A stretch of DNA of 64,000 bases from assembly GCF_019733395.1 (NCBI RefSeq), contig NZ_JAIHOO010000001.1:3410501-3474500 (forward strand). The letters run 5' to 3'. The translations under genes and the position numbers were made by a program. The notes beneath the pieces were generated by a model. The model ran no database searches. It was not told the DNA's origin and worked only from the letters and a program-made list of their open reading frames with translations. Within the stretch, counting starts at the first letter, position 1, and each line of letters starts with the position of its first letter. Below, piece after piece: positions 31,342 through 62,360 of the stretch. Source of the DNA: Lysobacter sp. BMK333-48F3 (GTDB taxonomy: Bacteria > Pseudomonadota > Gammaproteobacteria > Xanthomonadales > Xanthomonadaceae).

Positions 31342-31352
31342 CGCCGCTCCAA

Positions 31353-31455: not shown

Positions 31456-31507
31456 AAGCGGCGCCGCTGCGGCGACGCATCTCACCGAACTCAACTACCA
31501 GCCGACC

Positions 31508-35511: not shown

Positions 35512-35514
35512 CGC

Positions 35515-35655: not shown

Positions 35656-35699
35656 GATTCGTTGGTTGGGTTGGTTGCAGCGTTCGGAGTGAAGCCGCC

Positions 35700-37031: not shown

Positions 37032-37118
37032 AGAGAAAACAGGAACGAGTAAAGGTCGCCCCGGCTCGTTCCTCTCCACCCGTTCCTCCCGAATCCAGAT
37101 TTCAGCGAGCCCCTCCCC

Positions 37119-45231: not shown

Positions 45232-45424
45232 GCCCTTGCGCCGGCAAGCGTGGTGCAAGATCGCGTCATCACATCAGGGAATCGGGGGCATCGGCTATGC
45301 GAACAGCTTCGGCATCGGCTTGGTTTCGAAGCGGGCTGCCTGCAGAACGAGGGGTAGGGCGGAGCGATCCGATGCGCCGCGGTCGATCGCGCGGCGGCCC
45401 GGGCCGGAAAACGGCGTCTGCGAA

Positions 45425-46348
45425 ATGTCGCTTTTCTACCGGCCGCCAGCCATGAGCGCGATCGATCGCTTTGCCGCGTTGCGGGGCTGGCGGGAGGCCG
45501 GCGAGTTCATCACTGTCGGCGGCCGGCGCATCTACTGCCGTCGCGGCGGCGCGGGGCCGCGGCTGCTGCTGATCCACGGTTTCCCGACCAGCAGCCTGGA
45601 TTGGGCGCCGATCTGGCCGATGCTGGCCGCGCGTTTCGAGGTGCTGGCCTTCGATCTGCTGGGCCTGGGCTTTTCCGACAAACCCCGCGGCCACCGCTAC
45701 CGCGTGCATGAGCAGGCGGATCTGGCCGTAGCGGTCGCGCACCATTACGGCTGGAACGCCGCGTTGGTACTCGCCCACGATTACGGCGATACGGTCGCGC
45801 AGGAACTGCTTGCCCGAAACGAACGCAACTCCGCGCTGCGCATCCTTCGTCTGTGCTTGCTCAACGGCGGACTGTTCCCGGAAACCCATCGTGCGCGGCT
45901 CATCCAGCGACTGCTCGCTTCGCCGCTCGGCCCTGGCCTGGTCGGGCTGATGAGCCGGCGCGGCTTCGCGCGCAGTCTCAATGCCTTGTTTTCGCCGGCG
46001 CGGCCGCTCAGCGAGGCGCAGATCGACGAGTACTGGGCCTTGCTGCAGCACGAACGGGGCCTGCAGGCGGTGCCGTCGCTGCTCGGCTACGTGGCCGAGC
46101 GCCGGCGCGAACGCGCGCGCTGGGTCGGTGCGCTGCAAACGGCCGAGGTGCCTGTGCGCTTGATCTGCGGTGCGCTCGATCCCGTCAGCGGACTGCATAT
46201 GGCCGAACGCTATCGGCAACTCGTGCCGCGTGCGGATATCGTCGTGCTGGACGATGTCGGCCATTTTCCGCAGTTGGAAGACCCGCAGCGCGTGTTCGCC
46301 GCCGCCGCCGAATTTTTTCTCGGCGGCGACGCGCAGTCGAGCGTGTGA
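45425..46348 (+). CDS. Alpha/beta hydrolase, epoxide hydrolase/dehalogenase-like
   Basis: 307 residues. The oxyanion HGFPTSSLDW, the nucleophile Asp in LAHDYGDTVAQ, a cap region (about 150-220) and the terminal His in DDVGHFPQLEDP are present. An Asp nucleophile fits haloalkane dehalogenases and epoxide hydrolases; the halide-binding Asn of the HGNPTSS motif is Phe here, which argues against dehalogenation. The alternative start MSAIDRF at 45452 is also plausible. The 193 bp upstream hold no gene. Confidence 0.83.
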   Translation: MSLFYRPPAMSAIDRFAALRGWREAGEFITVGGRRIYCRRGGAGPRLLLIHGFPTSSLDWAPIWPMLAARFEVLAFDLLGLGFSDKPRGHRYRVHEQADLAVAVAHHYGWNAALVLAHDYGDTVAQELLARNERNSALRILRLCLLNGGLFPETHRARLIQRLLASPLGPGLVGLMSRRGFARSLNALFSPARPLSEAQIDEYWALLQHERGLQAVPSLLGYVAERRRERARWVGALQTAEVPVRLICGALDPVSGLHMAERYRQLVPRADIVVLDDVGHFPQLEDPQRVFAAAAEFFLGGDAQSSV

Positions 46349-46717
46349 GACGGTTCGGAATTCCGGGTCAGGGCGACGCCGATCCGCCGCATCCGATCGA
46401 TCCGAACCCATCAAGAACGCGACAGGGTAGAACCCGACAATCGCGCACGCCGGATCGCGCCGTCCGGGCGACATACGCCGCTGCGTTTTTCGGTATGCGG
46501 GCTACCGGATCGACGCTGCATCGAGCGCAAGAGATGAACGCGGATCGTCGTCGCCGGCATGCCGTCATTCGATGCATCGCTGGCCGGTCGCGGACGGTTT
46601 GCCCGTCTGCTCCAGGGCGGTCGGTGCGTATCGCCGAACGCGCAAGGCGAAACAGCACGACTAACCCATATTTTTGTCGGGAACAGTGAAAGGGTTTCCG
46701 AAAACCAAAAACGGCCG

Positions 46718-46782
46718 TTGACGCTTCCAGGGGTGGGATGTAGTGTCCGGCCGCAGGACGAACCGGTGTAGAGCAAAGGAGA
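46718..46782 (+). promoter_or_regulatory. Candidate promoter and ribosome-binding site of the NRPS gene
   Basis: TTGACG at 46718-46723 and TAGTGT at 46741-46746 are 17 bp apart, a fair sigma-70 pair. AAAGGAG at 46775-46781 serves the NRPS gene. The rest of the 435-bp gap (46349-46717) shows no gene. Confidence 0.45.
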
Positions 46783-46783
46783 A

Positions 46784-49700
46784 ATGCTCGTGAGCGCGCC
46801 CTCGAACGACGGGACCATGGCCGTGCCGGACGCCAGTCCCGGCCGTGCCGACTTCCCGCTGACCGACATGCAACGCCTGCTGGTCGTCAGCGCCGCCGAC
46901 GGCATGGAATATGCGCTGCATCCGCACCTCTATTTCGAGGTGGAGCGTCCCGGTCTCGACATCGACCGCTTCGTTGCCGCGATCGGCCGCGTGATCGAAC
47001 GCCACCGGCGCAATATCGTCGCCGTGACCCCGGATCTGCGGCTGCGCCAGGTCGACGAGGTGGAGCCGCCTCGCGTATCCGTCTGGGACCTGCGCGGATT
47101 GTCCGAACTGGCGACGACGCTGGGACTCGCCCAGATCCGACACCGGATGGCGAATCAGCCGCTGCCCATGGACCGTTGGCCCTGGCTCGATTTCCAGCTG
47201 ACCCGCTACGGCGACAGCGACGTGCGGCTGCACGTCAACTTCAGCAACCTGTTTCTCGATCAGTCCTCGGGCCTGCGCCTGCTGTCCGAGATCGAGCAGT
47301 ACTACGCGAATCCGGATACCGAATTGCCCGCCGACCCGGTCGGCATCGCGGAGGTTTCGCTGGCGTTGGCGCAGCGCCACGACGCCGCCGACCGCGCGCG
47401 CGCCTACTGGGACGAGCGCATCGCCGCGCTGCCCGCTCCGCCCGACCTGCCGCTGCTGCGCCTGCACGGAAACCCCGGTTTGAACCGGCGCCGGCTGGTG
47501 GTCGACGCAGCGACGTGGAGCGCCTTCACCGCCGGCGTCGCCGCGCACGGCATGAGCCCGGTGACGGCCTTGCTGGCGGTGTACGGCGAAATCGTCGCCC
47601 GTTTCAGCGGATCGCGCCATTTCATTCTCAATCAGATGATCACGCGCCGCCTGCTCAGGCGGATCCCGGGCGCCGAGTCGGTGCTGGGCAACCTCGGCGC
47701 GATCTATCCGCTCGAATTCGATTGGCGCGGCACCGCCTCCCTGCAGGAACGGGCCGGCCGTCTGCAGGCGACGATCATCGGCGATCTCGGGCGCACCGAT
47801 TGGTCGGGCGTCGATGTGCTCGGCGCCTTGAATTCCCGCCACCATTCGCAAGGCCGCGCCGCGTGTCCGTTCGTGGTGTCGTCCGGCTTGGCCGGCGGCG
47901 AGCAGGAGGCGTTCGTCTACAGCAAGCTGGCGACGCCGCAGGTGTTGCTGGACCACCAGTTCTTCGCGCTGCGCGGCGGCCGCATCGAAATCGTCTGGGA
48001 CGTCGTGGAAGCGGCGTTCCCCGCCGGGTTCATCGATGCGTTCTGCAGCGCGCACGAAGCGCTGATACGCCGCTTGGCCGCCGACCCGCAAGCCTGGACC
48101 GCGACGGCCACGTTGGTGTCGTCCGACCGTCCGGCGCCGCCGGCGCAAACCGGTCCCACCCGGCCGCAGCACGCGGGCCGCCTGTCGGACGGGCTGAAGG
48201 TAAGCGCCTGCCTCGCGCCCGAGCGTCCGGCGGTGGTCTGCGGCGACGACGCGCTGAGCTACGGCGAACTGGCCGCGGCCGCCGAATCCTTGGCGAAGGT
48301 CTTGTGCGCCCGGGGCGTTCGCCCCGGCGACCGCGTCGCCATCGTGCTGGCCAAGGGCGTCCCGCAGATGATCGCGGTGTATGCGGCGCTGCTCGCCGGC
48401 GCCGCGTACGTGCCGATCGATCCGGCTTGGCCGCAGAAGCGGATCGACCAACTGGTGACCGACATCGGCGCGGCGGCGATCGTCTGCGTCGACGGCAGCG
48501 ACGGCGGCGAACGCGAAGGCGTGCCCGTCGTCGCGGTCCGCGGCGATGCGGCGGCCTCCGCCGGCGCCGCCTGCGCCGGCACGGTGCTGCCCGCCGAGCT
48601 CGATCCGTCCGGTCTGGCCTACGTCATCTACACCTCGGGCTCGACCGGCCAGCCCAAGGGCGTCGCGCTCGATCACCGTGGGCCGATCAACACCATTCTC
48701 GACGTCAACGGCGAGTTCGGCATCGTCGCCGAGGACGTGCTGTTCGGGGTGTCGTCGCTGTCGTTCGACCTGTCGGTCTACGACATCTTCGGTGCGGCGA
48801 TGGCGGGCGCGACCCTGGTGCTGCCCGATCCGGCCGACCACAGCCCGCACGCCTGGCTGGCGGCGATGCTCGAACGCGGGGTCACGGTGTGGAACTCGGC
48901 GCCGCCGCTGATGCAGTTGCTGGTCGACGTCGCCCGCGCCGAGGGCGTGCAACTGCCCGAGCTGCGCCTGGTGATGCTGTCCGGCGACTGGATCGCGCTG
49001 TCCCTGCCCGACGACATCAAGGCGATCGCGCCGAACGCGAAGGTGGTCAGCCTGGGCGGCGCGACCGAGGCGTCGATTTGGTCGATCTGGCACCCCATCG
49101 ATGCGGTCGATCCGAGGTGGCGCAGCATTCCCTACGGACGGCCGATGGCGAACCAGCCCTGGTACGTTCTCGACGAGCAGGGCAATGAGACGCCGACCTG
49201 GACGACGGGGCAGCTGCATATCGGCGGCGTCGGCCTGGCCCAAGGCTATTGGGGCGACCCCGACAAGACCGCGAGGGCGTTCACGACGCACCCCGCCACC
49301 GGCGAGCGCATCTATCGCACCGGCGATCTCGGCCGCTTGTTGCCCGACGGCAATATCGAGCTGATCGGGCGCATCGACGCGCAATGCAAGATCCAGGGGC
49401 ATCGGGTCGAGCCCGGCGAAGTCGAACACGTGCTGGCCGCCGATCCGCGGGTCAAGGACGCTGTCGTCCTGGTCGCCGGCGAGGCCAGGCAGAAGCAACT
49501 GCGCGCGTTCGTCGTGCCCCACGAGGGGGCGGGCCCCAGCGACGGCGAGTCGATCCGCGCCAGCCTGGTCGACCGGCTGCCGAGTTACCTGGTCCCGGCG
49601 CAGGTCACGGTGCTCGCGAGCCTGCCGGTCACCTCCAACGGCAAGCTCGACCGTAGCGCGCTGATCGCGCTCGCCGAACCGGTCGTCGTCGCCGGCGCTG

Positions 49701-50629
49701 CTTACGTCGCGCCGCGCACCGAGCTGGAGCAGACCATCGTCGCCGTGTGGAAGGACGTGCTGGGCGTCGAAACCATCGGCGTCGACGACGACTTCTTCAA
49801 TCTCGGCGGGCAATCGTTCGCCGCGCTGCGTGCGGTCGCCGCGCTGCGTTCGCGGACCAAGCTCACGCTGTCCCTCGGCGGGCTGATCGAGTCGCGCACC
49901 GTCGCGCGCCTGGCCAGCCTGATGACCGGGCAGCGGCGGTCCAACGCCCTGGTGCCGCTGCACCCCGGCGCCGGGCCGGCGATGTTCATGGTCCACCCGG
50001 CCGGCGGATCGGTCGCGGCCTATCGCGACCTGGCGCGCGACCTCGACCGCGCCAGTTTCGGGCTCGCGGCCAGCGAGCCGCTGCCCGGCACCGTGGAAGC
50101 GCTGGCGCAGGGCTATGTGGCCGCGGTGCGCGACGCAGCGCCGGGCCCGTACACGATCCTGGGCTGGTCGTCGGGCGCGGTGATCGCGCTGGAGATGACC
50201 GCGCAACTCGAAGCGGCCGGGGAAAAGGTCGCGCAGTTGATCGTGCTCGACGCTCCGGCGCCGACCGACCCGCCGCCCGGCCCGGTCGACGACGGCACCT
50301 TGCAGGACTGGTTCCGCGAGGACACCGCCGGCGCCGACCTGCTCGACACGGAACTGCATCATGTCTATCCGGTGTTCGCGCAGATCGTGAACGCCTGCCG
50401 CAGCTACCAGCCGCCGGTCGTGGCCGCGGACGTCGCCCTGATCCGGGCCCGCGACGGGCGGGTCAGCGAATACGCGGAACATCCGCACGAGGCCATGGGC
50501 GATTGGGGCTGGTCTCCGCGCACCCGCGGCACGGTGGCCACGCGCGTGGTCGCCGGCACGCACCACAGTCTGTTCAGTTCGCAGCACCTCGCCGACGTCG
50601 TGTCCGCAGTCCAGGAGCTCAGCCGATGA
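46784..50629 (+). CDS. Single-module NRPS: Cy - A (Cys) - T - TE
   Basis: 1281 residues. Residues about 25-450 are a cyclization-type condensation domain (FPLTDMQRLL, MDRWPWLDFQL, TPQVLLDHQFF); its DxxxxD motif reads SNLFLD, so the first Asp is Ser. Residues about 465-960 are an adenylation domain (YVIYTSGSTGQPKGV). Its ten specificity positions read DLYNLSLIWK, the established cysteine code. A carrier domain (FFNLGGQSFAALRA, Ser near 1010) and a type I thioesterase (ILGWSSGAVIAL) follow. The module should join an acyl group to Cys, possibly as a thiazoline, and release it. The spacing of AAAGGAG also allows a GTG start at 46790. It is followed by the monooxygenase and faced by the FAAL operon. 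Confidence 0.92.
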   Translation: MLVSAPSNDGTMAVPDASPGRADFPLTDMQRLLVVSAADGMEYALHPHLYFEVERPGLDIDRFVAAIGRVIERHRRNIVAVTPDLRLRQVDEVEPPRVSVWDLRGLSELATTLGLAQIRHRMANQPLPMDRWPWLDFQLTRYGDSDVRLHVNFSNLFLDQSSGLRLLSEIEQYYANPDTELPADPVGIAEVSLALAQRHDAADRARAYWDERIAALPAPPDLPLLRLHGNPGLNRRRLVVDAATWSAFTAGVAAHGMSPVTALLAVYGEIVARFSGSRHFILNQMITRRLLRRIPGAESVLGNLGAIYPLEFDWRGTASLQERAGRLQATIIGDLGRTDWSGVDVLGALNSRHHSQGRAACPFVVSSGLAGGEQEAFVYSKLATPQVLLDHQFFALRGGRIEIVWDVVEAAFPAGFIDAFCSAHEALIRRLAADPQAWTATATLVSSDRPAPPAQTGPTRPQHAGRLSDGLKVSACLAPERPAVVCGDDALSYGELAAAAESLAKVLCARGVRPGDRVAIVLAKGVPQMIAVYAALLAGAAYVPIDPAWPQKRIDQLVTDIGAAAIVCVDGSDGGEREGVPVVAVRGDAAASAGAACAGTVLPAELDPSGLAYVIYTSGSTGQPKGVALDHRGPINTILDVNGEFGIVAEDVLFGVSSLSFDLSVYDIFGAAMAGATLVLPDPADHSPHAWLAAMLERGVTVWNSAPPLMQLLVDVARAEGVQLPELRLVMLSGDWIALSLPDDIKAIAPNAKVVSLGGATEASIWSIWHPIDAVDPRWRSIPYGRPMANQPWYVLDEQGNETPTWTTGQLHIGGVGLAQGYWGDPDKTARAFTTHPATGERIYRTGDLGRLLPDGNIELIGRIDAQCKIQGHRVEPGEVEHVLAADPRVKDAVVLVAGEARQKQLRAFVVPHEGAGPSDGESIRASLVDRLPSYLVPAQVTVLASLPVTSNGKLDRSALIALAEPVVVAGAAYVAPRTELEQTIVAVWKDVLGVETIGVDDDFFNLGGQSFAALRAVAALRSRTKLTLSLGGLIESRTVARLASLMTGQRRSNALVPLHPGAGPAMFMVHPAGGSVAAYRDLARDLDRASFGLAASEPLPGTVEALAQGYVAAVRDAAPGPYTILGWSSGAVIALEMTAQLEAAGEKVAQLIVLDAPAPTDPPPGPVDDGTLQDWFREDTAGADLLDTELHHVYPVFAQIVNACRSYQPPVVAADVALIRARDGRVSEYAEHPHEAMGDWGWSPRTRGTVATRVVAGTHHSLFSSQHLADVVSAVQELSR

Positions 50630-50726
50630 CCCACGCACGCCCTTGCGGCTCGCCCTCGCGCCTTTGCGCGTCCGCATCTGTACTGCCCGCGCCGGCGCCG
50701 GTTCGCGCCGGGGTGGTGGAGTGAGC

Positions 50727-51803
50727 ATGTCCGGCACCAACGCATCGGCCGGCAACGGCGGGCTGCCCAGCGACGTCGACGTCGTGGTGATCGGCGCGGG
50801 CCAGGCCGGCCTCGCCGTCGGCCAGACGCTGAAGCAAGCGGGCGTGAACTTCGTCATCCTCGACGCCGCGAACGAACTCGGCGTTTCCTGGACCCATCGC
50901 TGGGATTCGCTGCGGCTGTTCACCTCCGCGCGGTACTGCGGTCTGCCCGGCCTGCCGTTCCCCGGCGACCCGGACCGATACCCGGCCAAGGACGAAGTGC
51001 CGCATTACTTCCGCAGCTACGCGGCGAGGTTCGAGCTGCCGGTGCATCTGGGCCACCGGGTGACTTCGGTCGGCCGGTCCGACGGGGGCTTCATGGTGAC
51101 CACGCCGACCGCACGCATCGCCGCGCGCCAGGTCGTCGCCGCGGTCGGGGCGTTCCAGACTCCGGTCGTTCCCGAGTTTTCCAAGCGGCTGGCACCGTCG
51201 GTCACCCAGCTGCATTCGCACGCTTACCGCAATCCCGATCAGATTCCCGCCGGCAAGGTCGCGGTCGTCGGCTCGGCGAACTCGGGCCTGCAGATCGCGA
51301 CCGAGCTGGCCGGCAGCCGTGAGGTGGTGGTCTGCAAAGGCCGCAAGCAACCCCGATTGCCGCAGCGGATACTGGGGCGCGATGCGTTCTGGTGGCTGTC
51401 CAAGTGCGGCATTCTGCGCCTGCCGACCAACACGCCGTTGGCGCGGCGACTGGCCATGCCCGACCCGGTGGTCGGCGCCAAAATCGGCGAACTGGCTCGC
51501 AGCATGAGCTTCGTCGAGCGGGTGGTCGACGCCGACGGCACGCAACTGGTCACCGCCGACGGCAAGCGGATCGAAGCATCGACCGTGCTGTGGGCGACCG
51601 GCTACCGCAACGACTGGTCCTGGCTGAGCCCGGAACTGCGCGGCTCGGACGGGCAGCCCCAGCACGACGCGGGCATCGGCGCGTCCGGCTTGCACTTCGT
51701 CGGCCTATACCGGATGCGCAACCGCGGTTCGGCGCTGCTCGGTTTCGTCGGCCGCGACGCGCAACGCGTCGGCGCAGCCGTCGCGCGCCGCAGCCGGCGC
51801 TGA
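50727..51803 (+). CDS. FAD/NAD(P)-dependent monooxygenase (CzcO/FMO-like)
   Basis: 358 residues. The FAD fingerprint VVIGAGQAGLAVGQ is at the N-terminus, with WTHRWDSLRLFTSARY, the second dinucleotide fold VAVVGSANSGLQIA, and the ATGYRND motif near the end. It is close to CzcO-like flavoprotein monooxygenases, which hydroxylate or oxidise N or S, and is shorter than Baeyer-Villiger enzymes (about 500 residues). It lies 97 bp after the NRPS on the same strand, so oxidation of the Cys-derived ring or chain is its likely job. ATG at 50727 is preferred with GGTGGAG upstream. Confidence 0.85.
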   Translation: MSGTNASAGNGGLPSDVDVVVIGAGQAGLAVGQTLKQAGVNFVILDAANELGVSWTHRWDSLRLFTSARYCGLPGLPFPGDPDRYPAKDEVPHYFRSYAARFELPVHLGHRVTSVGRSDGGFMVTTPTARIAARQVVAAVGAFQTPVVPEFSKRLAPSVTQLHSHAYRNPDQIPAGKVAVVGSANSGLQIATELAGSREVVVCKGRKQPRLPQRILGRDAFWWLSKCGILRLPTNTPLARRLAMPDPVVGAKIGELARSMSFVERVVDADGTQLVTADGKRIEASTVLWATGYRNDWSWLSPELRGSDGQPQHDAGIGASGLHFVGLYRMRNRGSALLGFVGRDAQRVGAAVARRSRR

Positions 51804-51811
51804 GCCTAGGC

Positions 51812-53062
51812 TCAGCCGGCCTGCCGTTCGGCGGCCTGCGGTTCGGTCGCCTGCGGTTCGGTGGGCTGCAGCCCGAAAGCCTGCTCCGGCTGCCACTCGT
51901 CGATCAGCCGGTCGTAGTTGGCGTAGTCCGGCTCCAGGCCGGCGGCGACGATCTCCCACAGCATCTCGTCGGTGCCGCCGCCGATGCGCGCCATCTTCAC
52001 GTCGCGCCACCAGCGGCCCAGCGGCGACTCCGACTCCAGCACGCCGGCGCTGCCGAAAATGTGCATGCACTCGGACATCACTTCGCCGCCGAGGCGGACC
52101 ACGCTGACCTTGGCCGCCGAGGCCGAGCGCACGTTGAACCCGGCGCCCTCCGCGATCAGCCCGTTCAAGGCCAGGCGCATCATGTCGACCCGCGCCTGCA
52201 GGTCGGCGACCCGCAGCCGCAGCGCCTGATGGTCGAACAGGGTGGCGCCGAAGGACTTGCGCCGCTTCATCCGCGCGACGGTCACGCCCAACGCCAACTG
52301 GCAGGCGCCGACGATCTGCGCCGCCATGGCGAAGCGCTCCTGGGCCAGGGCCATGCTGAGCACGGCCAGGCCGGTGCCGGGGCGGGCGATCATCATCTCC
52401 GCGGGCACCCAGGTGTCGAAGAACACCGGCGCGGTGCTGATGCTGCGGGCGCCGACCGTGGCGAATTGCTTGCCGACCCGCAACTGCGAGGTCGGCACCA
52501 GGAACAGCGCCAGATCGTCGCGGCCGGCGTGGCTTTCGTCGGTGCCGCGCAGCGCCAGCACGATGTAGTCGGCTATCGGCGAAGGCGAGGCCATCTTCTT
52601 GTGCCCGCGCAGGCGGTAGCCGCCGTTCTCGCGCACCGCGGTCGAGGCCAGCCCGAGCATGTCCGAGCCCGCGCCGGCTTCGGTCGCGGAGATGCACAGC
52701 ACGGCCCGGCCGGCGATCGCCTGGTCGGCGACTTCGCGCAGCCGGTCGGAACGGCCGAACCGGCGCAGCATCGCGATCGCCGAGTCGTGCAGGGTCACGC
52801 CGGAGGCGATGCCGCCGGCGCCGAGCCGGCCGAAGCGCTCGGACAAGGCCAGGGTGTGCTCCAAGGCGGGCACCGGGCGGTCCTGCCACTTGGCGGCGAA
52901 GATGCCTTCGCGGCCCAGCAATTCGACGATGCTGCGCGGGAACACGCCCGCGGCTTCGGCCTCGTCGACGATCCGGCGGGTCGACTCCAGCGCCAGGATC
53001 TTGTCCAGATGCTGCTTGAACGAGGCGGTATCGGACATCGCGGTTTCGATCTGCAGACTCAT
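51812..53062 (-). CDS. Acyl-CoA dehydrogenase-like protein, probably acting on acyl-ACP
   Basis: 416 residues with the three ACAD segments: an N-terminal helical domain, ISATEAGAGSDMLGLAS (flavin-binding strand region), and a C-terminal helical domain ending RDVKMARIGGGTDEMLW. The Glu of the YEGT motif, catalytic base in MCAD-type enzymes, is Gly here, so the base must come from another position as in some subfamilies. The tail (PTEPQATEPQAAE) is encoded by 15-bp tandem repeats. It overlaps the ligase stop codon (TAATG). In mycobactin synthesis the homologous set (MbtN with MbtM and MbtL) desaturates the ACP-bound chain. Confidence 0.87.
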   Translation of the reverse strand: MSLQIETAMSDTASFKQHLDKILALESTRRIVDEAEAAGVFPRSIVELLGREGIFAAKWQDRPVPALEHTLALSERFGRLGAGGIASGVTLHDSAIAMLRRFGRSDRLREVADQAIAGRAVLCISATEAGAGSDMLGLASTAVRENGGYRLRGHKKMASPSPIADYIVLALRGTDESHAGRDDLALFLVPTSQLRVGKQFATVGARSISTAPVFFDTWVPAEMMIARPGTGLAVLSMALAQERFAMAAQIVGACQLALGVTVARMKRRKSFGATLFDHQALRLRVADLQARVDMMRLALNGLIAEGAGFNVRSASAAKVSVVRLGGEVMSECMHIFGSAGVLESESPLGRWWRDVKMARIGGGTDEMLWEIVAAGLEPDYANYDRLIDEWQPEQAFGLQPTEPQATEPQAAERQAG

Positions 53063-54765
53063 TAGCCGACCTGTTCCTGTTGTCGTTGACGGTTCATGCC
53101 ATGCGACATGGCCAGCTCGGTTTCGACGATGCTGATGGTGGCGGAGCGCCGCGGCTTGCCCGACGGCGTCTTCGGCAGCGTGCGCGGCGGCACCACCGAC
53201 ACCAGCCGCGGGCTGACGCCGAACGCCGCATAGACCGCGTCCGACACTTCGTTTTTGATCCGGGCGCTGGATTCGAGGTCGGCGCTGTCGGCCGCTTCGA
53301 CCACCACCGCGAATTCCTCGCGTATGCCCGCCGCGGCCAGGGCGACGGCGATGGCGTTGCCCGGGCGCACGCCGTCGACGCGGCAGGCCGCGCGCTCGAT
53401 GTCGGTGGGGAAGATGTTGCGTCCGGCGACGATGATCATGTCCTTCAAGCGGCCGCAGACGACCACTTCGCCGGTTTCGGTGACGTAACCCATGTCGCCG
53501 GTGCTGAACCAGCCGCCGTCGCCGAGCAGCGACTGCTTGCCGTTCTGGGTGAGGTAGTAGCGCGAGACGGCATCGCCGCGGATCTTGAGCTCGCCGACCA
53601 CCCGCGCCTGAGTACCGGCGTCCGGCCCGTCGCCGACCATGATCTCGCCGACCATGATCTCGATGCCTGGCAGGGGCTTGCCCAGCCGGGCCAGGTGGCG
53701 CGCGGCCTCGTCCGTGCGCGGCGACGCATACGACTTGAGTTCGATCGCCGCCTGATCGACCGCATCGAACTGCATGCCGGCGCCGGTCTCGGAGAACGAG
53801 ATCGCCAGGGTGGCTTCCGCCATTCCGTACGCGGCGATGAAGGCCTTGCCGTCCAGCCCGAAGCGGGCGCCGGATTCGATCACCGCGGCGACGGTGGCGT
53901 GGTCGATGGGTTCGGCACCGCTGAGCACGAAGCGCAGCGAAGACAGGTCGAACGCGCCGTCGGGCGCCGCGCGCAGATAGCGGGCGAGCAGGGCATAGGC
54001 GAAGTTCGGCCCCGCGGTCATCGTCCCGCGGTACTTGGAGATCAGCGCCGGCCACAGCCGCGGCGAGCGCAGGAAGTCCCCGGGCGCCGCGCAAACCGCT
54101 TCCGCGCCGACCTGCATCGGCAGCACCATGAAACCGATCATGCCCATGTCGTGGTACAGCGGAAGCCAGCTGACCAGCACGTCGCTGCGCGGGTCGAGCC
54201 GCGACGCGCTCACCATCGCCGCTGCGTTTTCGTACAGGTTGCGGTGCGAGATCGCCACCGCCTTCGGCAGCCCGGTCGAGCCCGAGGTGAGCTGCAGGAA
54301 GGCGATATCGTCCTCGCCGCAATCCACCGGCGCCAGCGCCGCGCCTTCGGCCAGCGTCTCCGCGGCCAGCACCGTGGTGCCCTGCGCGCCGAACAGCGGC
54401 GTGGTGCGCGCGAACGCGTCGCCGACCACCACCACCTGGGCGCCGATCATTTCGAGCACCGCGAAGCTGTCTTCCGCCCAGGCCGCGAGGTCCGAGCGCG
54501 GGCCGGGCTGATGCAGCATCGTCACCGACGCCCCGCGCATCCATATGGCCTGGATCACCGGCGCGATGCTGGCCGGTTCGCCGACCAGCACGCCGACCGT
54601 GTCGCCGGGCTTCACCCCGGCCGAGGCCAGCGAGCCGGCCATGCGGCGGGCGATCTCATGAATCTGCTGCCAGGTGCGCCGCACCGGCTGCTGCGGTTCG
54701 CCGGTCACCAGGCCTTGGCCGGACGCGGGCGCAGAGACGAATACCTGCTGGGTAAACCTGCTCAT
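53062..54765 (-). CDS. Fatty-acyl-AMP ligase (FAAL)
   Basis: 567 residues of the ANL superfamily. The ATP loop is LTSGSTGLPKAVAISH. WLPLYHDMGMIGF, SKYRGTMTAGPNFAYALLA and FVLSGAEPID are the blocks that separate FAALs from acyl-CoA ligases. AYGMAEATLAISF and the hinge GRLKDMIIVAGRNIFP follow. FAALs make an acyl-adenylate and transfer the chain to an ACP rather than CoA. It stands between the ACP and ACAD genes in one minus-strand operon. Confidence 0.92.
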   Translation of the reverse strand: MSRFTQQVFVSAPASGQGLVTGEPQQPVRRTWQQIHEIARRMAGSLASAGVKPGDTVGVLVGEPASIAPVIQAIWMRGASVTMLHQPGPRSDLAAWAEDSFAVLEMIGAQVVVVGDAFARTTPLFGAQGTTVLAAETLAEGAALAPVDCGEDDIAFLQLTSGSTGLPKAVAISHRNLYENAAAMVSASRLDPRSDVLVSWLPLYHDMGMIGFMVLPMQVGAEAVCAAPGDFLRSPRLWPALISKYRGTMTAGPNFAYALLARYLRAAPDGAFDLSSLRFVLSGAEPIDHATVAAVIESGARFGLDGKAFIAAYGMAEATLAISFSETGAGMQFDAVDQAAIELKSYASPRTDEAARHLARLGKPLPGIEIMVGEIMVGDGPDAGTQARVVGELKIRGDAVSRYYLTQNGKQSLLGDGGWFSTGDMGYVTETGEVVVCGRLKDMIIVAGRNIFPTDIERAACRVDGVRPGNAIAVALAAAGIREEFAVVVEAADSADLESSARIKNEVSDAVYAAFGVSPRLVSVVPPRTLPKTPSGKPRRSATISIVETELAMSHGMNRQRQQEQVG

Positions 54766-54837
54766 GATGCGATCGATCCTTGATCTTCCGGTATCGCGCG
54801 CCGGCGACGGAGCGTACCGTCGCGGCGACCGGGGGCT

Positions 54838-55134
54838 TTAGGCGGGAACTGCGGATTCGTCGGGAATCCCGGCGTCGCAAGCGACAGTGCGATGGCGCGT
54901 CTGTTCGATCAGCCGGGTCACATCGCCGACGGTCTTGCAGCGGATCAGTTCCTCCTGCTGCAGCGTCACCCCCAAGCGCTCCTCGATCGACACCAGGCCG
55001 ATCGCGAACGCGATGGAGTCGAAGCCCAACTCGCCGACCAACAAGGCATTCGGATGCACCCGCGCCGGCTCGATCGCAAGTTCGTCCCGGAAAACTGCAA
55101 CGAGCGTCTCATAGGCGGTCGAATTTTCAGACAT
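54838..55134 (-). CDS. Acyl carrier protein
   Basis: 98 residues. The phosphopantetheine site is LGFDSIAFAIGLVSIEERLG, flanked by the usual four-helix pattern. AAAGGAG lies nine bases before the ATG. The C-terminal TVACDAGIPDESAVPA tail is extra. First gene of the operon ACP-FAAL-ACAD, so it is the likely carrier for the FAAL product and for the ACAD reaction. Confidence 0.93.
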   Translation of the reverse strand: MSENSTAYETLVAVFRDELAIEPARVHPNALLVGELGFDSIAFAIGLVSIEERLGVTLQQEELIRCKTVGDVTRLIEQTRHRTVACDAGIPDESAVPA

Positions 55135-55583
55135 AAATCACTCCTTTGATTTCCAACGAGCGTAGCACGGCGGCTATCGCGTCCTGGATCCCCGTAGCGT
55201 GTGAATCGGGCGTTCTGCTGCAGGAATACGCGGTTTGGGGATGGCGTAGGACAAGGCCGGTTGACGCACGTTTGGCGTCATATGTGATGGAGTCCGCGTA
55301 GTGAAGATCCGAAGCTCTTGGCAGTATCGGCCTTCATCGGCGGCCAGTTCTGATGGTCGCCGTCAATACGAGAGCGGAAAAGAGTTCGCAGCCGCGCTGC
55401 GTTAGTTGGAGGACGGTTATGCTAAATCCGATCAGTTCGGCTGGAAGCAGCCCTAAGCCCGATTAGTAGCAGACAATTTGTCACGCCTGTGCATTGAGGT
55501 TTACTCAGTGTTGAAGGGAAACCGCTCTCGCGAACAGAAAGTCGGTAGGATTTCCGCAAAGCAGACCAGGGGGCGGGTTGTCG
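55135..55583. other. Intergenic region, start of the low-G+C island
   Basis: About 450 bp between the divergent ACP and STAND genes. G+C falls visibly here compared with the left side. TTGTCA at about 55478 with TTACTC 17 bp on is a weak promoter candidate for the STAND gene. No gene, tRNA or attachment repeat was found. Confidence 0.5.
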
Positions 55584-58376
55584 ATGCTATTCGAATCCAT
55601 CAAGAAGCGGATTATCAGTCGATTGATCGACGAGATCTCGGCCATGGATCCGACACATTTAGAATTGGCGGGGCATGGACTGATCGAGCTATTGGAGAAC
55701 AAGAAACTTGTGCATCATGGCATCAACAAGGACTACAAGTTTGTCGGGTATACCGTCGACTCGTTCTCCGAAGATTCGACGGTCATTGCCCAATACAGTA
55801 CTGAGGGCGGCTATTTCAAGAACACGGGCAAGGAGGACGCGCCCGTCTACGAAAAGATTGAGAAGGATGTGCAAAGCGCCGAGAAGCACCGACCTCGCAC
55901 CGGTGCGACCAAAATCTATTTGATGTCAACGGAGGAAGAAATTCCTTCCTTCCGGTCAAAGTTCAATGGCACCGCTATGGCGCAAGAGTTGGGGGATGCG
56001 CTGATCATCCTCGACGCGCGGGAACTCGCCAAGCGCATCTACGACCTTGCCGTCGAGAGGCCGGACGCGGCGGCCTTTTTCAGAGAGTTCTTTCCCGAGT
56101 TTGGCCAAGCTCTCGACAACTTCGAGTATTTCGGTCGCCTGCCGGCCCAATGTGCAAATCATCAATCAAACGAAGCCGTCATCGCTGCTCTGCGCGATCA
56201 TTTCGCGGGAGGCCGCTCCGTAGCAGTCCTGCATGGCTTGAGTGGTACGGGCAAGACACAAGCCGCCATCGATTTCGTCCACCAGGAAGAAGGGAACTTC
56301 GATAACTACATCTGGCTAGCCAGTGGCGACTGGCATCCCGACATCCCGCTCTCTGCCGTAACGCGACAGCGCGGCGGAAAGCCCTTGAACGTAGTGGGCA
56401 GCTTCAATTCGGCCAAGACCATCCTGGTGGTCGACCGGCTTGATCAGGCTGTGGATCCCGCTGTGTTCGCGGAACTCCAGTCCGGGTTCGATAAAGGCGG
56501 TGTCGTGATCGTCACGTCCCAAGTCGCTGTTCCCGGTGCACCATCGCATGTGCCAATCCCGCGAGTGTCCAGGGAAATAGCCATGCGCATTCTCGGTGAA
56601 GACCCCGCGCAGGCAAGGGAGATCAGTGAGCGTTTCGTGGACGCGTGTGGATTTTTGCCCCTGGTGCTGGCTACTGCCAAAACCGTTATTGACTCTCAGA
56701 GCGTCCCACGCGATGCGTTCTATGGGGACGTGCTGGCGTCTCCGGACGCGCTGAGTGGAGACGACGGCGTCTCCATCCTAAGGAGCATTCTGCGTCGACT
56801 CGATGGCGCGCCGCTTGCTGCTTTGGAGAGGATTGCGAATACTGGCCTGGCGATGCATGACGGCGGATTCCTTACCCACTTCATCCGCCACGTGCCAAAG
56901 TTCGAACTCCAGAAGCTGGCGTTCCTGTCGCCAGCGAGCGCGACTGGCGTCCTGCTCGTCCATGACTTGGTGTGTCGAGCCGTTCGAACGGCCGACGGCA
57001 CGAGCGACCTGATCACAGAGGTCGAGCACTATATCGAACAGCTGCAAGGAGAGATGACCCCATCCGCGCTGCGTCAGATTCATCTGTCTCGAACACAGCT
57101 GCTGGCAGAGCACCATCGACGCGGAGAGCGTGGTCCAGATTGGTTACTGTATGCCTTGCTGCAGATCGAAGAGGCTAAGCAAGAGGTCTTTGCTGTCTAC
57201 GCAGGCCGACCGATAATTCCTGACGGCAGCCTCGCTGCGCTCATATCCACGATCGATGCGCGCGAGCAATACGCATATACCCTGGATCACCTGGATCGTG
57301 CCGGCTACTACGCGGCCTGCGCTCAGGAGTACGAAAAAGCCTTGGGTGGTGCTCAGGGTAGAAACAGGGCGGAGCTTTTGCATCACCTTGGCAAGGCCTA
57401 TCGCCGCTGTGGTGAGATAGACAAGGCACTGACGACGTTCCGGCAGTTGCTGGAATTGGAGCCCATGTGGCACGCGACACATGGTCAGATTGCACACTTG
57501 GGCGCGCAGCACGACGCCACCGAGCAGGCAAAGCAGGCCGGCGAACAGTCATTGCGCTATCTGATCACGCAGATCGTGAGCGATCCGACCAGCGTTCCTC
57601 TGCGCGTGGCCATGGCAGCGTTAAGCAATCTGCGTTCCTACGCTGAGGTGGCTGAACAGCTAAATGGAGACGAGAGAAGCATAGAGGCACTTGGGGAAGT
57701 GATAAGCCAATCAGCACTCGAAGGGCTCGATCAATTTTATGACGCCTTCGTTGCTTTTACGTCGAAGTTCAGCTACAGGCATCCGCACATCAGCTTCGAG
57801 TTGGTTAGCGCCGTTGGAGACATGTTCGAAGTCTCACCTGTATCGATTGGAAGGAGGCACTTGCTGAGCGTCAGCGAATCGCTAGCCAATGTCGCGCAGA
57901 GTGCGCAGCGCTCTGGAGATGCGACGCTGGCAAGGAGGTTGTCGGGTTTGAGCCTCATTTACGCTGAAGCGCTGCTCGCGGCGGGAGCGCCGGACTCATT
58001 TTCCGCTCGCGGCATTGCGAAAGCTTATACAATTGCTGGCGACCCTGCCCGTGCGCTGCAGGTAATTGCCGCGGTTCCGGCTGGACAGGTCAACCACTGG
58101 CTACTCTACCGCCGGGCCGAGGCTGAGTTAGCACTTGAACTGCCGCAGTCGCTTCAAACGGCTCGGGAAGCCCTCGCCGAGGCACAACGCGATCCGCGCG
58201 CAGCAAAGAATCTGGCGTCGTACTTCGACATGTTTAGTCGCTGCTTAAAGCACGCAGGCGACATTCCTGGCGCTACGGAACAAGCGAGACTTGCCGTAGC
58301 GCATAGCGAGGAGGGTCAGTTCCATCAGGAGCTGACCGAACGACTCGCTGCACTGGAGGAGCTAAGTTGCCGCTAG
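55584..58376 (+). CDS. STAND-type NTPase with nuclease-like N-terminus and TPR repeats, candidate phage defence protein
   Basis: 930 residues. Residues about 1-165 form an alpha/beta domain (GYTVDSFSEDSTVIAQYSTE, KIEKDVQSAEKH, TKIYLMSTEEE) that looks like a restriction-endonuclease fold, though the usual ExK is not evident. Residues about 195-450 are a P-loop NTPase: Walker A GLSGTGKTQ (about 217), Walker B KTILVVDRLDQ, then an NB-ARC-like helical part. Residues about 580-930 contain TPR-like helices (HHLGKAYRRCGEIDKALTTF). This is the effector-NTPase-sensor plan of Avs/STAND antiviral ATPases. G+C and codon use differ from the housekeeping genes. The ATG at 55584 is preferred over TTG at 55578. 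Confidence 0.82.
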   Translation: MLFESIKKRIISRLIDEISAMDPTHLELAGHGLIELLENKKLVHHGINKDYKFVGYTVDSFSEDSTVIAQYSTEGGYFKNTGKEDAPVYEKIEKDVQSAEKHRPRTGATKIYLMSTEEEIPSFRSKFNGTAMAQELGDALIILDARELAKRIYDLAVERPDAAAFFREFFPEFGQALDNFEYFGRLPAQCANHQSNEAVIAALRDHFAGGRSVAVLHGLSGTGKTQAAIDFVHQEEGNFDNYIWLASGDWHPDIPLSAVTRQRGGKPLNVVGSFNSAKTILVVDRLDQAVDPAVFAELQSGFDKGGVVIVTSQVAVPGAPSHVPIPRVSREIAMRILGEDPAQAREISERFVDACGFLPLVLATAKTVIDSQSVPRDAFYGDVLASPDALSGDDGVSILRSILRRLDGAPLAALERIANTGLAMHDGGFLTHFIRHVPKFELQKLAFLSPASATGVLLVHDLVCRAVRTADGTSDLITEVEHYIEQLQGEMTPSALRQIHLSRTQLLAEHHRRGERGPDWLLYALLQIEEAKQEVFAVYAGRPIIPDGSLAALISTIDAREQYAYTLDHLDRAGYYAACAQEYEKALGGAQGRNRAELLHHLGKAYRRCGEIDKALTTFRQLLELEPMWHATHGQIAHLGAQHDATEQAKQAGEQSLRYLITQIVSDPTSVPLRVAMAALSNLRSYAEVAEQLNGDERSIEALGEVISQSALEGLDQFYDAFVAFTSKFSYRHPHISFELVSAVGDMFEVSPVSIGRRHLLSVSESLANVAQSAQRSGDATLARRLSGLSLIYAEALLAAGAPDSFSARGIAKAYTIAGDPARALQVIAAVPAGQVNHWLLYRRAEAELALELPQSLQTAREALAEAQRDPRAAKNLASYFDMFSRCLKHAGDIPGATEQARLAVAHSEEGQFHQELTERLAALEELSCR

Positions 58377-58947
58377 CCGCACTCGGCAGTCGCGGAGTGC
58401 CGCGGAGCCAGCCGAAAGCTACGAGGCGCTCAAGGCCGATTTACGCGAACTAGTGACACTACGAAATACACTCGTACACCATTTCATCGAGCCTCATGAT
58501 CTCTGGACAGTCGATGGATGCCTGCATGCACAAGATGCACTTACCCGTTCATGCGCAGAGATCGACCGACACTTCGAACAACTGGGTACCTTCGCCGGCC
58601 ACATGGATGCTGCAAGGGAGGCAGCTGCCGAAGTGATGCAATCGCCCCAGTTCCTCGGCATGGTGGTCAACGGCATCGGGCCCAGCGGCCAGATTCACTG
58701 GCCCGTAGCGGGCATCGTCGGAGCGTTGAGGAAAGCCTTCTGGAAACTGTCCATCGGTGGCTGGGTGAACCTGGACGCGGCCGCGCGTTGGGTGTCCGAA
58801 CATCAGCCGGAACAAATCCCGAAGAAGTATGGGTGTTCCCGCTGGCGGCAGGTCATCCACGAATCCGAACAATTCGAATTGCATCGCTTCACGCACAACG
58901 GACAATTCGGGGCGTGGTTTCGAGAACGGTCTAACGCGACTGGTTGA
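58366..58947 (+). pseudogene. 5'-truncated HEPN-like / OST-HTH (LOTUS) protein
   Basis: The first start codon in frame is GTG at 58453, but coding character continues upstream to 58366 (ESYEALKADLRELVTLRNTL) with no start codon before a stop, so the N-terminus is probably lost. The N-terminal part has RNTLVH, an Rx4H motif as in HEPN ribonucleases. The C-terminal part (GGWVNLDAAARWVSEHQ, KKYGCSRWRQVIHESEQFEL) matches the OST-HTH/LOTUS RNA-binding domain. It overlaps the end of the STAND gene and may have been fused there by recombination. Its stop codon lies inside an attC-like site. Confidence 0.6.
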
Positions 58948-58995
58948 GAATTGTGCGGGTCGTCCATCGCTCTACGGCACACCGGGTCGTTAGCG
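58929..58995. other. attC-like integron recombination site (67 bp)
   Basis: GTCTAAC at 58929-58935 and GTTAGCG at 58989-58995 are paired core sites. Read on the minus strand it ends in GTTAGAC, a full match to GTTRRRY. The arms pair only partly. It marks the left end of the cassette array. Confidence 0.55.
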
Positions 58996-59026
58996 CCTAC
59001 CGGCCAGAAGTGGACATTGAGCGCCT

Positions 59027-59062
59027 GGATCAAGCCGTAGCGCGAAGCGGCTTAAGTCACCG
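59027..59062. other. attC-like stem relic without core sites
   Basis: TCAAGCCG and CGGCTTAA pair around TAGCGCGAAG, exactly the central stem of attC sites such as 60794-60853, but no GTTRRRY core is found next to it. Probably the remains of a deleted cassette. The rest of 58996-59168 holds no gene. Confidence 0.4.
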
Positions 59063-59168
59063 TCCAAAGAACCTCAGGTCGTATAGCTCGTCAGCTGATG
59101 CCGGAAATAATGACACTGTTTCACCGACTATCTGGGAGTAATTGGCGATCCAGGTGGCCCGAAGCCGT

Positions 59169-59790
59169 TCAATGAGATCCTGGGGAACAGCGGGCCGAAT
59201 ATTTTTTACGTTCCAGTCGCGCCAAAAACAAAATATGCTTGTCTATACGTTCCAGATCTCCTGGCATATTTGCGGTGAAATGGATGATGCTGTTAATGCC
59301 AAAGAATTTGTTTGGTAGCGATCGTGCAACGATGTTCCTGGCCATCTCGGGAGGCAAAGCAACGTTGCCGTTATTGACGAGAATAAGAAGACCTAGGGCC
59401 GACTCAGCTCCAAGTTCAAGTCGTGACTGCTTAATCTGGGTGTTTGCTTGTTTCAAGCTTCCATCGAGCCTCTTGCGGAGGAATGAAGTGACCTCATGTG
59501 CGCAAGTTGAAGGCAGCCGCGCAAGGTTGACGATGGTGCGGCCGACTATCGGCGGAGCCAAGTTGCGGTAGACCCAGTCCTGGTACTGACGATTCAGCCA
59601 CTCACTAAAGCTGCAGTCATCAAAGTAGTTGTCAGAGAGGCACTTGAGCTCACCGACGACATTGTCCTCAGGAAACCAGTAGTCGGCCTTGGTCGGATTT
59701 CTTAGTCCGTGGGTGTCATCAAGGAGTAAGCCCCCCAATCGCCCTGACGCAGGCATTCAGCTCTTTCGGGACGTCGACGTGAATTCGCAC
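59169..59790 (-). pseudogene. Cassette gene with frameshift; possible PD-(D/E)XK protein
   Basis: From GTG at 59790 the frame reads VRIHVDVPKELNACVRAIGG and then meets a stop just after a run of six G (plus-strand 59731-59736). One base fewer in the run would continue as LLLDDTHGLRNPTKADYWFP and the rest of the protein. The intact product would be about 206 residues. ADYWFPEDNVVGELKCL has the D...ELK pattern of PD-(D/E)XK nucleases. The C-terminal half (QIKQSRLELGAESALGLLIL) is unrecognised. It may be a true mutation, a phase-variable run or a sequencing error. An ATG at 59756 could give a shorter 195-residue product. Confidence 0.6.
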
Positions 59791-59794
59791 GATG

Positions 59795-59853
59795 ATCTAA
59801 CGCAGAACGTGAGCCGCGCCCCGAAGCGACATCGGCTTGAATGAGTTTTTAGA
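59795..59853 (-). other. attC site of the AbiTii cassette (59 bp)
   Basis: On the minus strand it starts TTCTAAAAACTCATTCAAGC and ends CTGCGTTAGAT. The right core GTTAGAT matches the consensus; the left core is degenerate. The stem TTCAAGCCGATGTCGCTTCG / GCGCGGCT is standard. It begins two bases after the AbiTii stop codon, as expected for a cassette. Confidence 0.8.
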
Positions 59854-59855
59854 AG

Positions 59856-60776
59856 TCATTTTAGGCCGTAGTACCTCAAGAGCGCTTCCTTGATTACGTC
59901 CGTGGCCACTGACAAGCCGATCTTCCAGGTGCCACCAGCGGCCTTCTTGAGGTTATTGAGAAGCCAATCTTTGACCTTGGGCCCCATCGGCTCGGCCGCA
60001 CTCTCTGGCTTCTCAGAAGAGGCCAAATCTGCGAGAGCACCTGCATCGTCTGCAGGAATGCCGGCCTGAACTAGATATTGAGACAGTGCCTCTTTGTTGC
60101 CCGTGTCGATCGAGATGGAGACGAAGGCGCCGCTTTGGGCCGACACAGAAGTGTAGTTGCCGTAAATGATCTGTTGCGCGATTTGAGTGGTAACTCCTGC
60201 TGCACTCCCGGGCAGATCGGCGGTATTTGCTAGTGAGACGTTTGCCGCCTGTGGGACGGACTTTTCAATCTCAAGTGTCAACTCAAGGATTCGATTCAGA
60301 ACAGCGTGTCTAATGGCGGCCAAGGACGCGCGCGAGATCGTACCAGTGACTGAGTTGCAGGCGTAGTCCTCATAGACCTTTCCCTGCAAGAGGAGAATGA
60401 GATTCGAAGCTTCAATTTGCAGTGAGCTACCCTTCTCTGAGGTGGAGAGCAGTTCATCTGCCGCGGCGATGCTTTGCCGCATTTCATAGCGAGTCCAGTG
60501 TTTGCCAGCGAACTTCTCGATCAGATAGGGTGAAATCGGCGCGTTGTTGATTCGTGAACCGAACGGGCCAAAGAAGGTGGCTCTGTAGCTAACTCCTAGG
60601 ATGCGATAGTCGGGAACCTCGACTTCTTGTGGGTACCCCTCCGACTCATGTTTTACCCATTCCGCAAGCGACTGACTGCCAAGTCGCGCGGCTAGCATTC
60701 TTAGCTTGAGTAGAATGGGCGCGATGTCGGACTGGTCTTGAAGAACGGCGCTTTGGATGTCTGCAAGAAGTCCCAC
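59856..60776 (-). CDS. AbiTii-type abortive infection protein
   Basis: 306 residues from GTG at 60776. The N-terminal VGLLADIQSAVLQDQSDIAP with KLRMLAARLGSQSLAEWVKH and ESEGYPQEVEVPDYRIL is the AbiTii domain pattern, found in proteins linked to abortive phage infection. The C-terminal part ends in a Gly/Val-rich helix (GTWKIGLSVATDVIKEALL) and YYGLK, also typical. Longer starts would begin inside the neighbouring attC and are rejected. It is a single-gene integron cassette bounded by attC sites on both sides. Confidence 0.8.
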   Translation of the reverse strand: MGLLADIQSAVLQDQSDIAPILLKLRMLAARLGSQSLAEWVKHESEGYPQEVEVPDYRILGVSYRATFFGPFGSRINNAPISPYLIEKFAGKHWTRYEMRQSIAAADELLSTSEKGSSLQIEASNLILLLQGKVYEDYACNSVTGTISRASLAAIRHAVLNRILELTLEIEKSVPQAANVSLANTADLPGSAAGVTTQIAQQIIYGNYTSVSAQSGAFVSISIDTGNKEALSQYLVQAGIPADDAGALADLASSEKPESAAEPMGPKVKDWLLNNLKKAAGGTWKIGLSVATDVIKEALLRYYGLK

Positions 60777-60793
60777 GGACTCGCCCCAATGAC

Positions 60794-60853
60794 GTCTGAC
60801 ACTTGAGTTAAGCCGCACCGCGCAGCGGCCCCGGCTTGAACGAATTGTTAGGC
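60794..60853 (-). other. attC site, canonical type (60 bp)
   Basis: On the minus strand: left core GCCTAAC, then AATTCGTTCAAGCCG, the loop region, GCGGCTTAACTCAAG and right core GTCAGAC (one mismatch to GTTRRRY). This is nearly the textbook 60-bp attC of mobile and Xanthomonas integrons. It begins two bases after the stop codon of the membrane-protein cassette. Confidence 0.92.
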
Positions 60854-60854
60854 A

Positions 60855-61796: not shown

Positions 61797-61933
61797 GATC
61801 TCCCCTGAAAGGTGCGTCCGATGCCCAACTATCTAATAGCCGGATCCTTGGGTCCGGTTGTACGATTTATCCACAGCGCACCGTGTAGTGGGCTATCCCC
61901 TTGATACGACTCGATCTTAGGGCGACTGGGTTC

Positions 61934-62059
61934 GGCTAACAAGCCGATGTGTAACCAGACCCAGCAGGATGCAGAGCCTACGCACCGGCGGATGTCTGCT
62001 TCGGGCCGAAAGCGGACATCGGTGTAGCCCGTCAATCACCAGGACGTGATTTGTTAGGT
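61934..62059 (-). other. Long attC-like site (126 bp)
   Basis: On the minus strand the left core ACCTAAC (62053-62059) matches RYYYAAC, and the right core is GTTAGCC (one mismatch). The middle has the strong hairpin GATGTCCGCTTTCGG / CGAAGCAGACATC. It would belong to a cassette to its right, but no gene is found there. The 137 bp from here to the membrane-protein gene hold nothing else. Confidence 0.6.
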
Positions 62060-62360
62060 ATACGCAGTCCGGCTATGGAATCGGACATGCCCGTTTGACA
62101 GGCGTCCACAGACCCTGCAATGTAGTCTCCATGGAGCGTCGAAACTCCTCGTATAGCGGTACCCACCTTCGTCAACGGTGGGTTTTTCATGCCCGATGTT
62201 TGGGCATGCCGACGCGTCTTCCTGCGTCGGGAGGGCGGCTAATACAAAACCCGCAAGGGGAATACGCCCGCCGTCTATGCGCGGTTTCGAACCTCCCGAC
62301 ATCCCGCCGGTCGCACAATGTGCCGCGCGGGCTTTCCGCCTAAGGACAGGAGTGCCGCGT
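62060..62360 (+). other. Structured non-coding leader with terminator-like hairpin
   Basis: The hairpin ACCCACC/GGTGGGT with a T5 tail (62161-62187) is followed by a second palindrome around ATGCCCGATGTTTGGGCAT and by G+C-rich short stems up to the ribosome-binding site of the next small gene. I recall similar hairpin leaders before short genes in Pseudomonas and Xanthomonadaceae but cannot name a family. No credible gene on either strand. Confidence 0.4.

Follow-up and report, generated by a model that had tools for sequence, protein, structure and literature searches.

What product can be expected from a single cysteine-type nonribosomal peptide synthetase (NRPS) that stands next to enzymes of fatty acid activation and desaturation? 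The question is raised by a compact locus of Lysobacter sp. BMK333-48F3, located in a stretch of 64,000 nucleotides (contig NZ_JAIHOO010000001.1, positions 3,410,501 to 3,474,500; hereafter the window). The host genome comprises 5.23 Mb in three contigs, and the closest named relatives for the cluster are Lysobacter. An earlier note on this DNA had described five genes as a closed logic, namely an NRPS with heterocyclization (Cy), adenylation (A), thiolation (T) and thioesterase (TE) domains, a flavin monooxygenase (FMO), a fatty acyl-AMP ligase (FAAL), an acyl-CoA dehydrogenase-like enzyme (ACAD) and an acyl carrier protein (ACP). We consider it fairly probable that the locus is a six-gene orphan Lysobacter cluster that would direct the synthesis of a 2-enoyl-cysteine lipid, probably a 2-alkenyl thiazoline. 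This proposal is built on the observed gene content, orthology, synteny, co-occurrence and catalytic residues, from which we infer every reaction, the closure of the ring and the sequence of the tailoring steps. The features concerned, in window coordinates, are the following.

45236..46348, plus strand: open reading frame (ORF) of an alpha/beta hydrolase (Pfam Abhydrolase_1), 370 aa, the true start probably lying inside this ORF
46718..46746, plus strand: probable NRPS promoter, TTGACG-17-TAGTGT with an extended -10
46784..50629, plus strand: single-module NRPS, Cy-A(Cys)-T-TE, 1281 aa, with an in-frame GTG at 46793 as alternative start
46823..48091, plus strand: Cy-family domain of the NRPS, aa 14-436
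48215..49669, plus strand: adenylation domain of the NRPS, aa 478-962, code DLYNMSLIW, L-Cys predicted
49730..49918, plus strand: thiolation domain of the NRPS, aa 983-1045, Ser1011
49982..50611, plus strand: type I thioesterase of the NRPS, aa 1067-1276, Ser1129/Asp1156/His1260
50643..51803, plus strand: FMO ORF, 386 aa, alternative starts ATG 50727 and GTG 50721
51812..53062, minus strand: MbtN-like acyl-ACP dehydrogenase (ACAD), 416 aa
53062..54765, minus strand: FAAL of the PRK07768 subfamily, 567 aa
54838..55134, minus strand: stand-alone ACP, 98 aa, motif GFDSIAF
55159..55167, minus strand: conserved TGCTACGCT upstream of the ACP gene, a probable -10, followed by the AAGGAGTG ribosome site

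The five genes first described are all present as ORFs without internal stops, and their Pfam families fit the roles given to them (Condensation, AMP-binding, PP-binding and Thioesterase on the NRPS; Pyr_redox_3 and FMO-like on the FMO; Acyl-CoA_dh domains on the ACAD; AMP-binding on the FAAL; PP-binding on the ACP). They form two convergent groups, NRPS-FMO on the plus strand facing ACP-FAAL-ACAD on the minus strand, with 13 bases between the NRPS stop and the start of the FMO ORF; the stop of the FAAL gene overlaps the start of the ACAD gene by one base. Each group has conserved upstream signals: TGTAGTGT of the NRPS promoter is exact in six of nine aligned upstream regions, and both TACG and AAGGAGTG upstream of the ACP are kept in all nine. 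Position 46718, at which the earlier note began the cluster, proved to be the -35 box of this conserved promoter, and the NRPS starts at 46784. A minus-strand ORF of 1442 aa (46661-50989) was rejected as the NRPS, since the domains sit on the plus-strand ORF.

Orthologues of the five genes were found at 72-93% identity in eight other loci (the FMO in seven of them), so that the cluster is not an artefact. At E<=1e-190 the NRPS occurs in nine of 395 genomes of the family, its own included, and in two of 54 genera. Within the genus, the NRPS (E<=1e-200), hydrolase (E<=1e-60), FMO (E<=1e-60) and FAAL (E<=1e-100) were detected in the same six of 20 genomes, own included, and none of the four in the other 14 at these thresholds, a pattern that is not to be read as a probability because the species are related. 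The hydrolase, which had gone unmentioned, adjoins the NRPS in seven of the eight orthologous loci. The five genes can thus be kept as members of one pathway but not as a complete set, given that this sixth gene both co-occurs and co-localizes with them.

Synteny is kept in seven of the eight loci, and the convergent orientation is common to the window and to those seven, as would be expected if ACP-FAAL-ACAD were a separate lipid pathway merely facing the NRPS. The FAAL and ACAD also have relatives in Mycobacteriales, an order that does not appear by name among the NRPS relatives listed with more than 40% identity. We nevertheless regard such a separate pathway as very improbable, given that NRPS and FAAL are found in the same six of 20 genomes and that the eighth locus (L047, on the same contig as L013, genome G250) carries NRPS-ACP-FAAL-ACAD on a single strand. 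Since these four genes share one strand in that locus, which belongs to one metagenome-assembled genome, the two convergent halves can be read as one pathway. Neither the FMO nor the hydrolase is present there; in G250 as a whole, no hydrolase match was obtained at E<=1e-30 and the FMO appeared only as a 39% relative on another contig. Because both are missing from this locus, the genes can be divided into a four-gene core and a pair consisting of FMO and hydrolase, which look like a tailoring pair. The place given to the monooxygenase in the pathway is only partly supported, its gene being absent from one relative's locus.

Within this pair, the elbow HDYGD and the His motif of the hydrolase are identical in seven of seven orthologues, with almost invariant oxyanion and acid motifs; we take the elbow, LAHDYGDTVAQ, to be of the Asp-nucleophile type. 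With scores of about 50-60 bits, the solved structures nearest to the hydrolase are of mixed kinds (alpha/beta hydrolases, epoxide hydrolases and dehalogenases), and those nearest to the FMO are 4usq, 4usr and 4a9w.

The acyl-supplying genes were compared with the mycobactin enzymes MbtM, MbtN and MbtL (FAAL, acyl-ACP dehydrogenase and ACP), to which the earlier note had likened them. The three-enzyme logic is the same, and the ACAD is a clear MbtN relative, its best solved match being MbtN (4xvx, 384 bits; the next, 122). It has a Glu at the helix-G position and, like MbtN, a Gly where a C-terminal Glu is usual; Glu242, presumably the catalytic residue, is invariant in 11 of 11 aligned sequences, and so is GGGTDE. 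By its profile score it is a relative of MbtN, not MbtN itself. The likeness does not extend to the other two proteins: the FAAL reaches only 332.3 bits against the MbtM model PRK05851 (cut-off 621) but 743.1 bits against PRK07768 (cut-off 572), and the ACP 82.5 bits against PRK05883 (cut-off 72), which places them in different subfamilies. Furthermore, the acyl chain would pass to a cysteine module in Lysobacter, whereas that of mycobactin goes to a lysine side chain. Profile scores and solved relatives nonetheless support the set of FAAL, ACP and acyl-ACP dehydrogenase as such. FAAL residues 338-377, the FAAL-insertion region, align unbroken with the solved FAALs 3pbk and 7r7f; most CoA ligases align to the FAAL in two stretches, as does one FadD32 entry, 5ey9. 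In PMC8460268, the rejection of CoA is attributed more to a plugged pocket than to the FAAL insertion.

Among the 120 matches listed for each, the named FAAL and ACAD relatives outside Lysobacteraceae are all Mycobacteriales or unspecified actinobacteria, and at E<=1e-80 the ACAD was found in its own genome only among 369 genomes of the class. A transfer of FAAL and ACAD from actinobacteria is suggestive from these comparisons. Most relatives of the NRPS that bear a name belong to other actinobacteria, and the parts of the cluster may therefore have different sources.

On the synthetase, 43 of 44 orthologue-type sequences carry the A-domain code DLYNMSLIW and the remaining one DLYNLSLIW, a code that is also present in 18 of the 24 sequences of the comparison group and that we take to be the cysteine code. 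The two agree at eight of nine positions, the ninth being a conservative change, and selection of L-Cys by the A domain is supported on this comparison. The T-domain Ser is present in all 44 sequences and the Ser, Asp and His of the TE in 42 each, so that the TE reported in the NRPS has an intact catalytic triad; the cysteine specificity read earlier from the A domain is likewise supported.

The identity of the N-terminal domain is less straightforward. Searched in isolation against the PDB (E<=0.001), it matched seven distinct sequences, all of them Cy domains or Cy-containing NRPSs (the Cy identity of two being taken from general background or PMC9547227), and by sequence it is a member of the Cy family, as had been assigned. 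The DxxxxDxxS signature of Cy domains was not found. For its analysis, 96 Cy-like stretches from the NRPS search were aligned, to which 42 of the 44 orthologue-type sequences contributed. In all 42 Lysobacter-type domains the alpha1 Arg is replaced by Ala, the first Asp by Ser (S154, giving SxxxxDxxS) and the dyad Thr by another Ser (S366). The Asp and Ser that end the motif are kept throughout, together with the dyad Asp (Asp390), the helper Gln (Gln392) and an Asn that corresponds, as judged by eye, to N335 of EpoB. A separate comparison showed SxxxxDxxS in 43 of 44 orthologue-type sequences, with a gap there in the remaining one.

The alpha1 Arg, first Asp and Thr are equally lacking in all 24 sister domains, the Thr place being occupied by Gly in 19, Ser in four and Ala in one. 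The other 30 stretches include 22 with Arg and Asp, 21 of these also with Thr, and eight without: P0094_1 (Gly at the dyad Thr place), P0095_0, P0107_0, P0115_0 (perhaps misplaced), P0124_1, P0103_0, P0112_0 and P0124_0. As a separate observation, P0103, P0112 and P0124, synthetases of 1318-1395 aa, have Arg at the first-Asp place and two of them Glu at the Arg place; the pattern of P0103_0, P0112_0 and P0124_0 looks as if the charges of the salt bridge had been exchanged. In a tree of 95 stretches (one short stretch, P0124_1, was dropped), the 42 Lysobacter-type domains, the 24 sisters and P0094_1 form a clade of 67 with a support of 0.998, and the 22 domains with Arg and Asp lie in another split (0.976). 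P0058 is placed beside the Lysobacter group and the remaining sisters with P0094_1 (0.996 and 0.982); the sister group had first been set by rank in the list of NRPS relatives and was then compared with the tree. Given this tree, the losses are probably one ancestral change and not repeated covariation.

These replacements raise the alternative that the Cy-like domain is limited to condensation, or forms a ring of another kind, delivering to FMO and hydrolase an N-(2-enoyl)-cysteine that is either open or cyclized from thiol to enoyl as a seven-membered 1,4-thiazepanone. We hold this to be a possible though unlikely outcome. It would agree with a whole clade devoid of the three residues beside 22 outside domains that keep at least Arg and Asp, with the Gly that replaces Thr in most sisters and in P0094_1, and with the 2-enoyl donor that both lineages appear to obtain; according to PMC9547227, cyclodehydration suffered severely when the Asp-Thr dyad or the Gln close to it was mutated. 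However, the Ser that replaces Thr in Lysobacter retains a hydroxyl, and Asp390, Gln392 and Asn283 are kept. The same source describes the aspartates of DxxxxDxxS as structural; the bridge from the first Asp to the alpha1 Arg, seen in EpoB and PchE, is missing from some of the solved Cy domains, and for this reason loss of the first Asp need not matter. Moreover, the three losses probably count as a single event, and the thiazepanone is a chemical suggestion of our own. Thiazoline formation thus retains the catalytic Asp and Gln in its favor, but without the canonical motif and Thr it is less safe than originally stated. With the first Asp, the alpha1 Arg and the dyad Thr replaced in 42 of 42 domains, cyclodehydration is not assured; ring formation by the Lysobacter NRPS is likely but not assured, and where the dyad Thr is Gly it is doubtful.

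Under the preferred thiazoline lipid reading, the FAAL would activate a free fatty acid and load it onto the stand-alone ACP, and the MbtN-like ACAD would desaturate the acyl-ACP at C2-C3. The T domain would be loaded with L-cysteine, to which the Cy-type domain would join the 2-enoyl chain, probably closing a 2-(1-alkenyl)thiazoline, and the TE would release the acid. FMO and hydrolase may then modify the product together, for example by oxygenation followed by hydrolysis.

Several observations weigh against this scheme, beginning with the replacement of the first Asp and dyad Thr by Ser and of the alpha1 Arg by Ala in every Lysobacter-type domain. The ACAD scores 446.6 bits against the NCBIfam MbtN model NF037942, the equivalog cut-off of which is 700. 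The FMO gene of L012 (Lysobacter antibioticus HS124; apparently G009) is split between two frames (9428-10593), and the hydrolase match in G155 contains one TGA; both could be due to decay or to assembly error. The single-strand order that links the two halves comes from one metagenome-assembled genome. Finally, across the eight orthologous loci the conserved unit contains no exporter, receptor or regulator, in accordance with the earlier remark on exporter and regulator, and nothing ties it to a known product.

The nearest relatives of the synthetase are single-module TubC_N-Cy-A-T-TE synthetases (P0059-P0081 except P0078, and L036), with 42-48% identity over 98-100% of the NRPS; they too are without the Arg, the first Asp and the Thr. 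Unlike the Lysobacter protein, nearly all carry an N-terminal docking domain; eight have an organism name, seven being actinobacteria and one a Pseudomonadota metagenome-assembled genome. L036, on a plasmid of Streptomyces sp. NBC_01435, is the sole sister locus with readable context, and its synthetase, 54% identical to P0061, has Cy motifs altered as in the Lysobacter NRPS. Its donor, in contrast to that of Lysobacter, would come from a FAAL-polyketide synthase (PKS), a protein of 2462 aa (FAAL-ACP-KS-AT-DH-KR-ACP) encoded directly upstream. Because KR and an intact DH motif are present and no ER domain was found in this protein, the acyl donor is predicted to be 2-enoyl. Two supply routes, ACAD and PKS KR-DH, would then feed the same unusual synthetase, which suggests, from one sister locus, that the 2-enoyl group matters to this synthetase type. 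It can be speculated, quite tentatively, that these domains are a Cy-derived class specialized for alpha,beta-unsaturated acyl donors, which has given up both the dyad Thr and the pair of Arg and Asp and which forms another ring, or no ring, from cysteine and the enoyl chain, and that Lysobacter (ACAD acting on acyl-ACP) and actinobacteria (PKS KR-DH) reached the 2-enoyl donor by unrelated routes. L036 also has a second NRPS and a GMC oxidoreductase, and PAPS-reductase-like and APS-kinase-like ORFs lie near the cluster (4827-6832), perhaps for sulfur supply.

The Cy-A(Cys)-T architecture is shared with the cysteine modules of pyochelin and yersiniabactin, and several NRPS orthologues are annotated as 'pyochelin synthetase' in one source. 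The Lysobacter cluster differs from these in its one module, fatty acyl donor, degenerate Cy signature and absence of aryl acid genes. A metallophore role, in which a thiazoline lipid would bind iron or copper, is suggested by the occurrence of Cys-Cy modules and MbtN-like desaturation in siderophore pathways. We judge it improbable, since the conserved unit has no phenolate or catechol starter gene and one module only, no Fur-box match was found in the window at <=3 mismatches (generic E. coli-type box) and no TonB receptor among the 38 Pfam-scanned window proteins, which are not all of its genes. The hallmarks of thiazoline siderophores (aryl starter, several Cy modules, Fur/TonB) were thus not observed, the Fur and TonB tests being partial.

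A further likeness is offered by the thiotetronate (thiolactomycin) PKS-NRPSs, as TlmB ends in Cy, A(Cys), PCP and TE domains (PMC5518548). Theirs, however, are fused to an iterative PKS and accompanied by P450s and a separate sulfur-donor locus, and TueB of this family reportedly has the DxxxxDxxS that the Lysobacter Cy domain lacks. A thiotetronate product was rejected on gene content, PKS and P450 being absent from the conserved unit; the sulfur-donor locus, which can lie elsewhere, was not sought. Caerulomycin, another user of a Cy-A(Cys) module, was rejected on gene content as well.

In the open-access full texts searched we found no paper on this cluster; subscription papers lie mostly outside this scope, and a published product is possible. 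Several Lysobacter NRPS clusters are given as unknown in PMC9410377, none of which could be mapped to this one. The pathway is a compact orphan; it is conserved in several Lysobacter, among them species under study for biocontrol, and is small enough to be cloned whole. Its NRPS represents a Cy-type clade without residues thought important for heterocyclization, so that making the product would be a test of which residues are required for cyclodehydration, and a new class of sulfur-containing lipid might come to light.

Around the cluster, the eight compared loci extend only a few kilobases; within them the S15 peptidase, the lumazine-binding-like gene and the 932-aa protein of the window were found in none, the trypsin-like gene in two and the ProA-like gene in three (L042, L043 and L044, upstream of the cluster as in the window). 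Arginine biosynthesis genes and this ProA-like gene occupy 28840-40881, upstream of the cluster.

Just past the ACP promoter, a stretch with low content of guanine and cytosine (55400-62100; about 54-62% versus about 66-75% elsewhere) holds the 932-aa TPR protein (55578-58376, plus strand) and an AbiTii gene (59856-60818, minus strand), AbiTii being a known phage-defence family. Two attC-like sites, 59812-59856 and 60811-60855, lie 999 bases apart on either side of the AbiTii gene, and others were seen by eye at about 59034-59059 and 61935-62062. A pattern drawn from the two sites gave three matches, one with three mismatches, against 0.02 expected, a comparison that is circular as a test. No integrase was recognized, 61.8-63.1 kb having had no profile search. 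The AbiTii region is possibly the remnant of an integron cassette carrying a defence gene.

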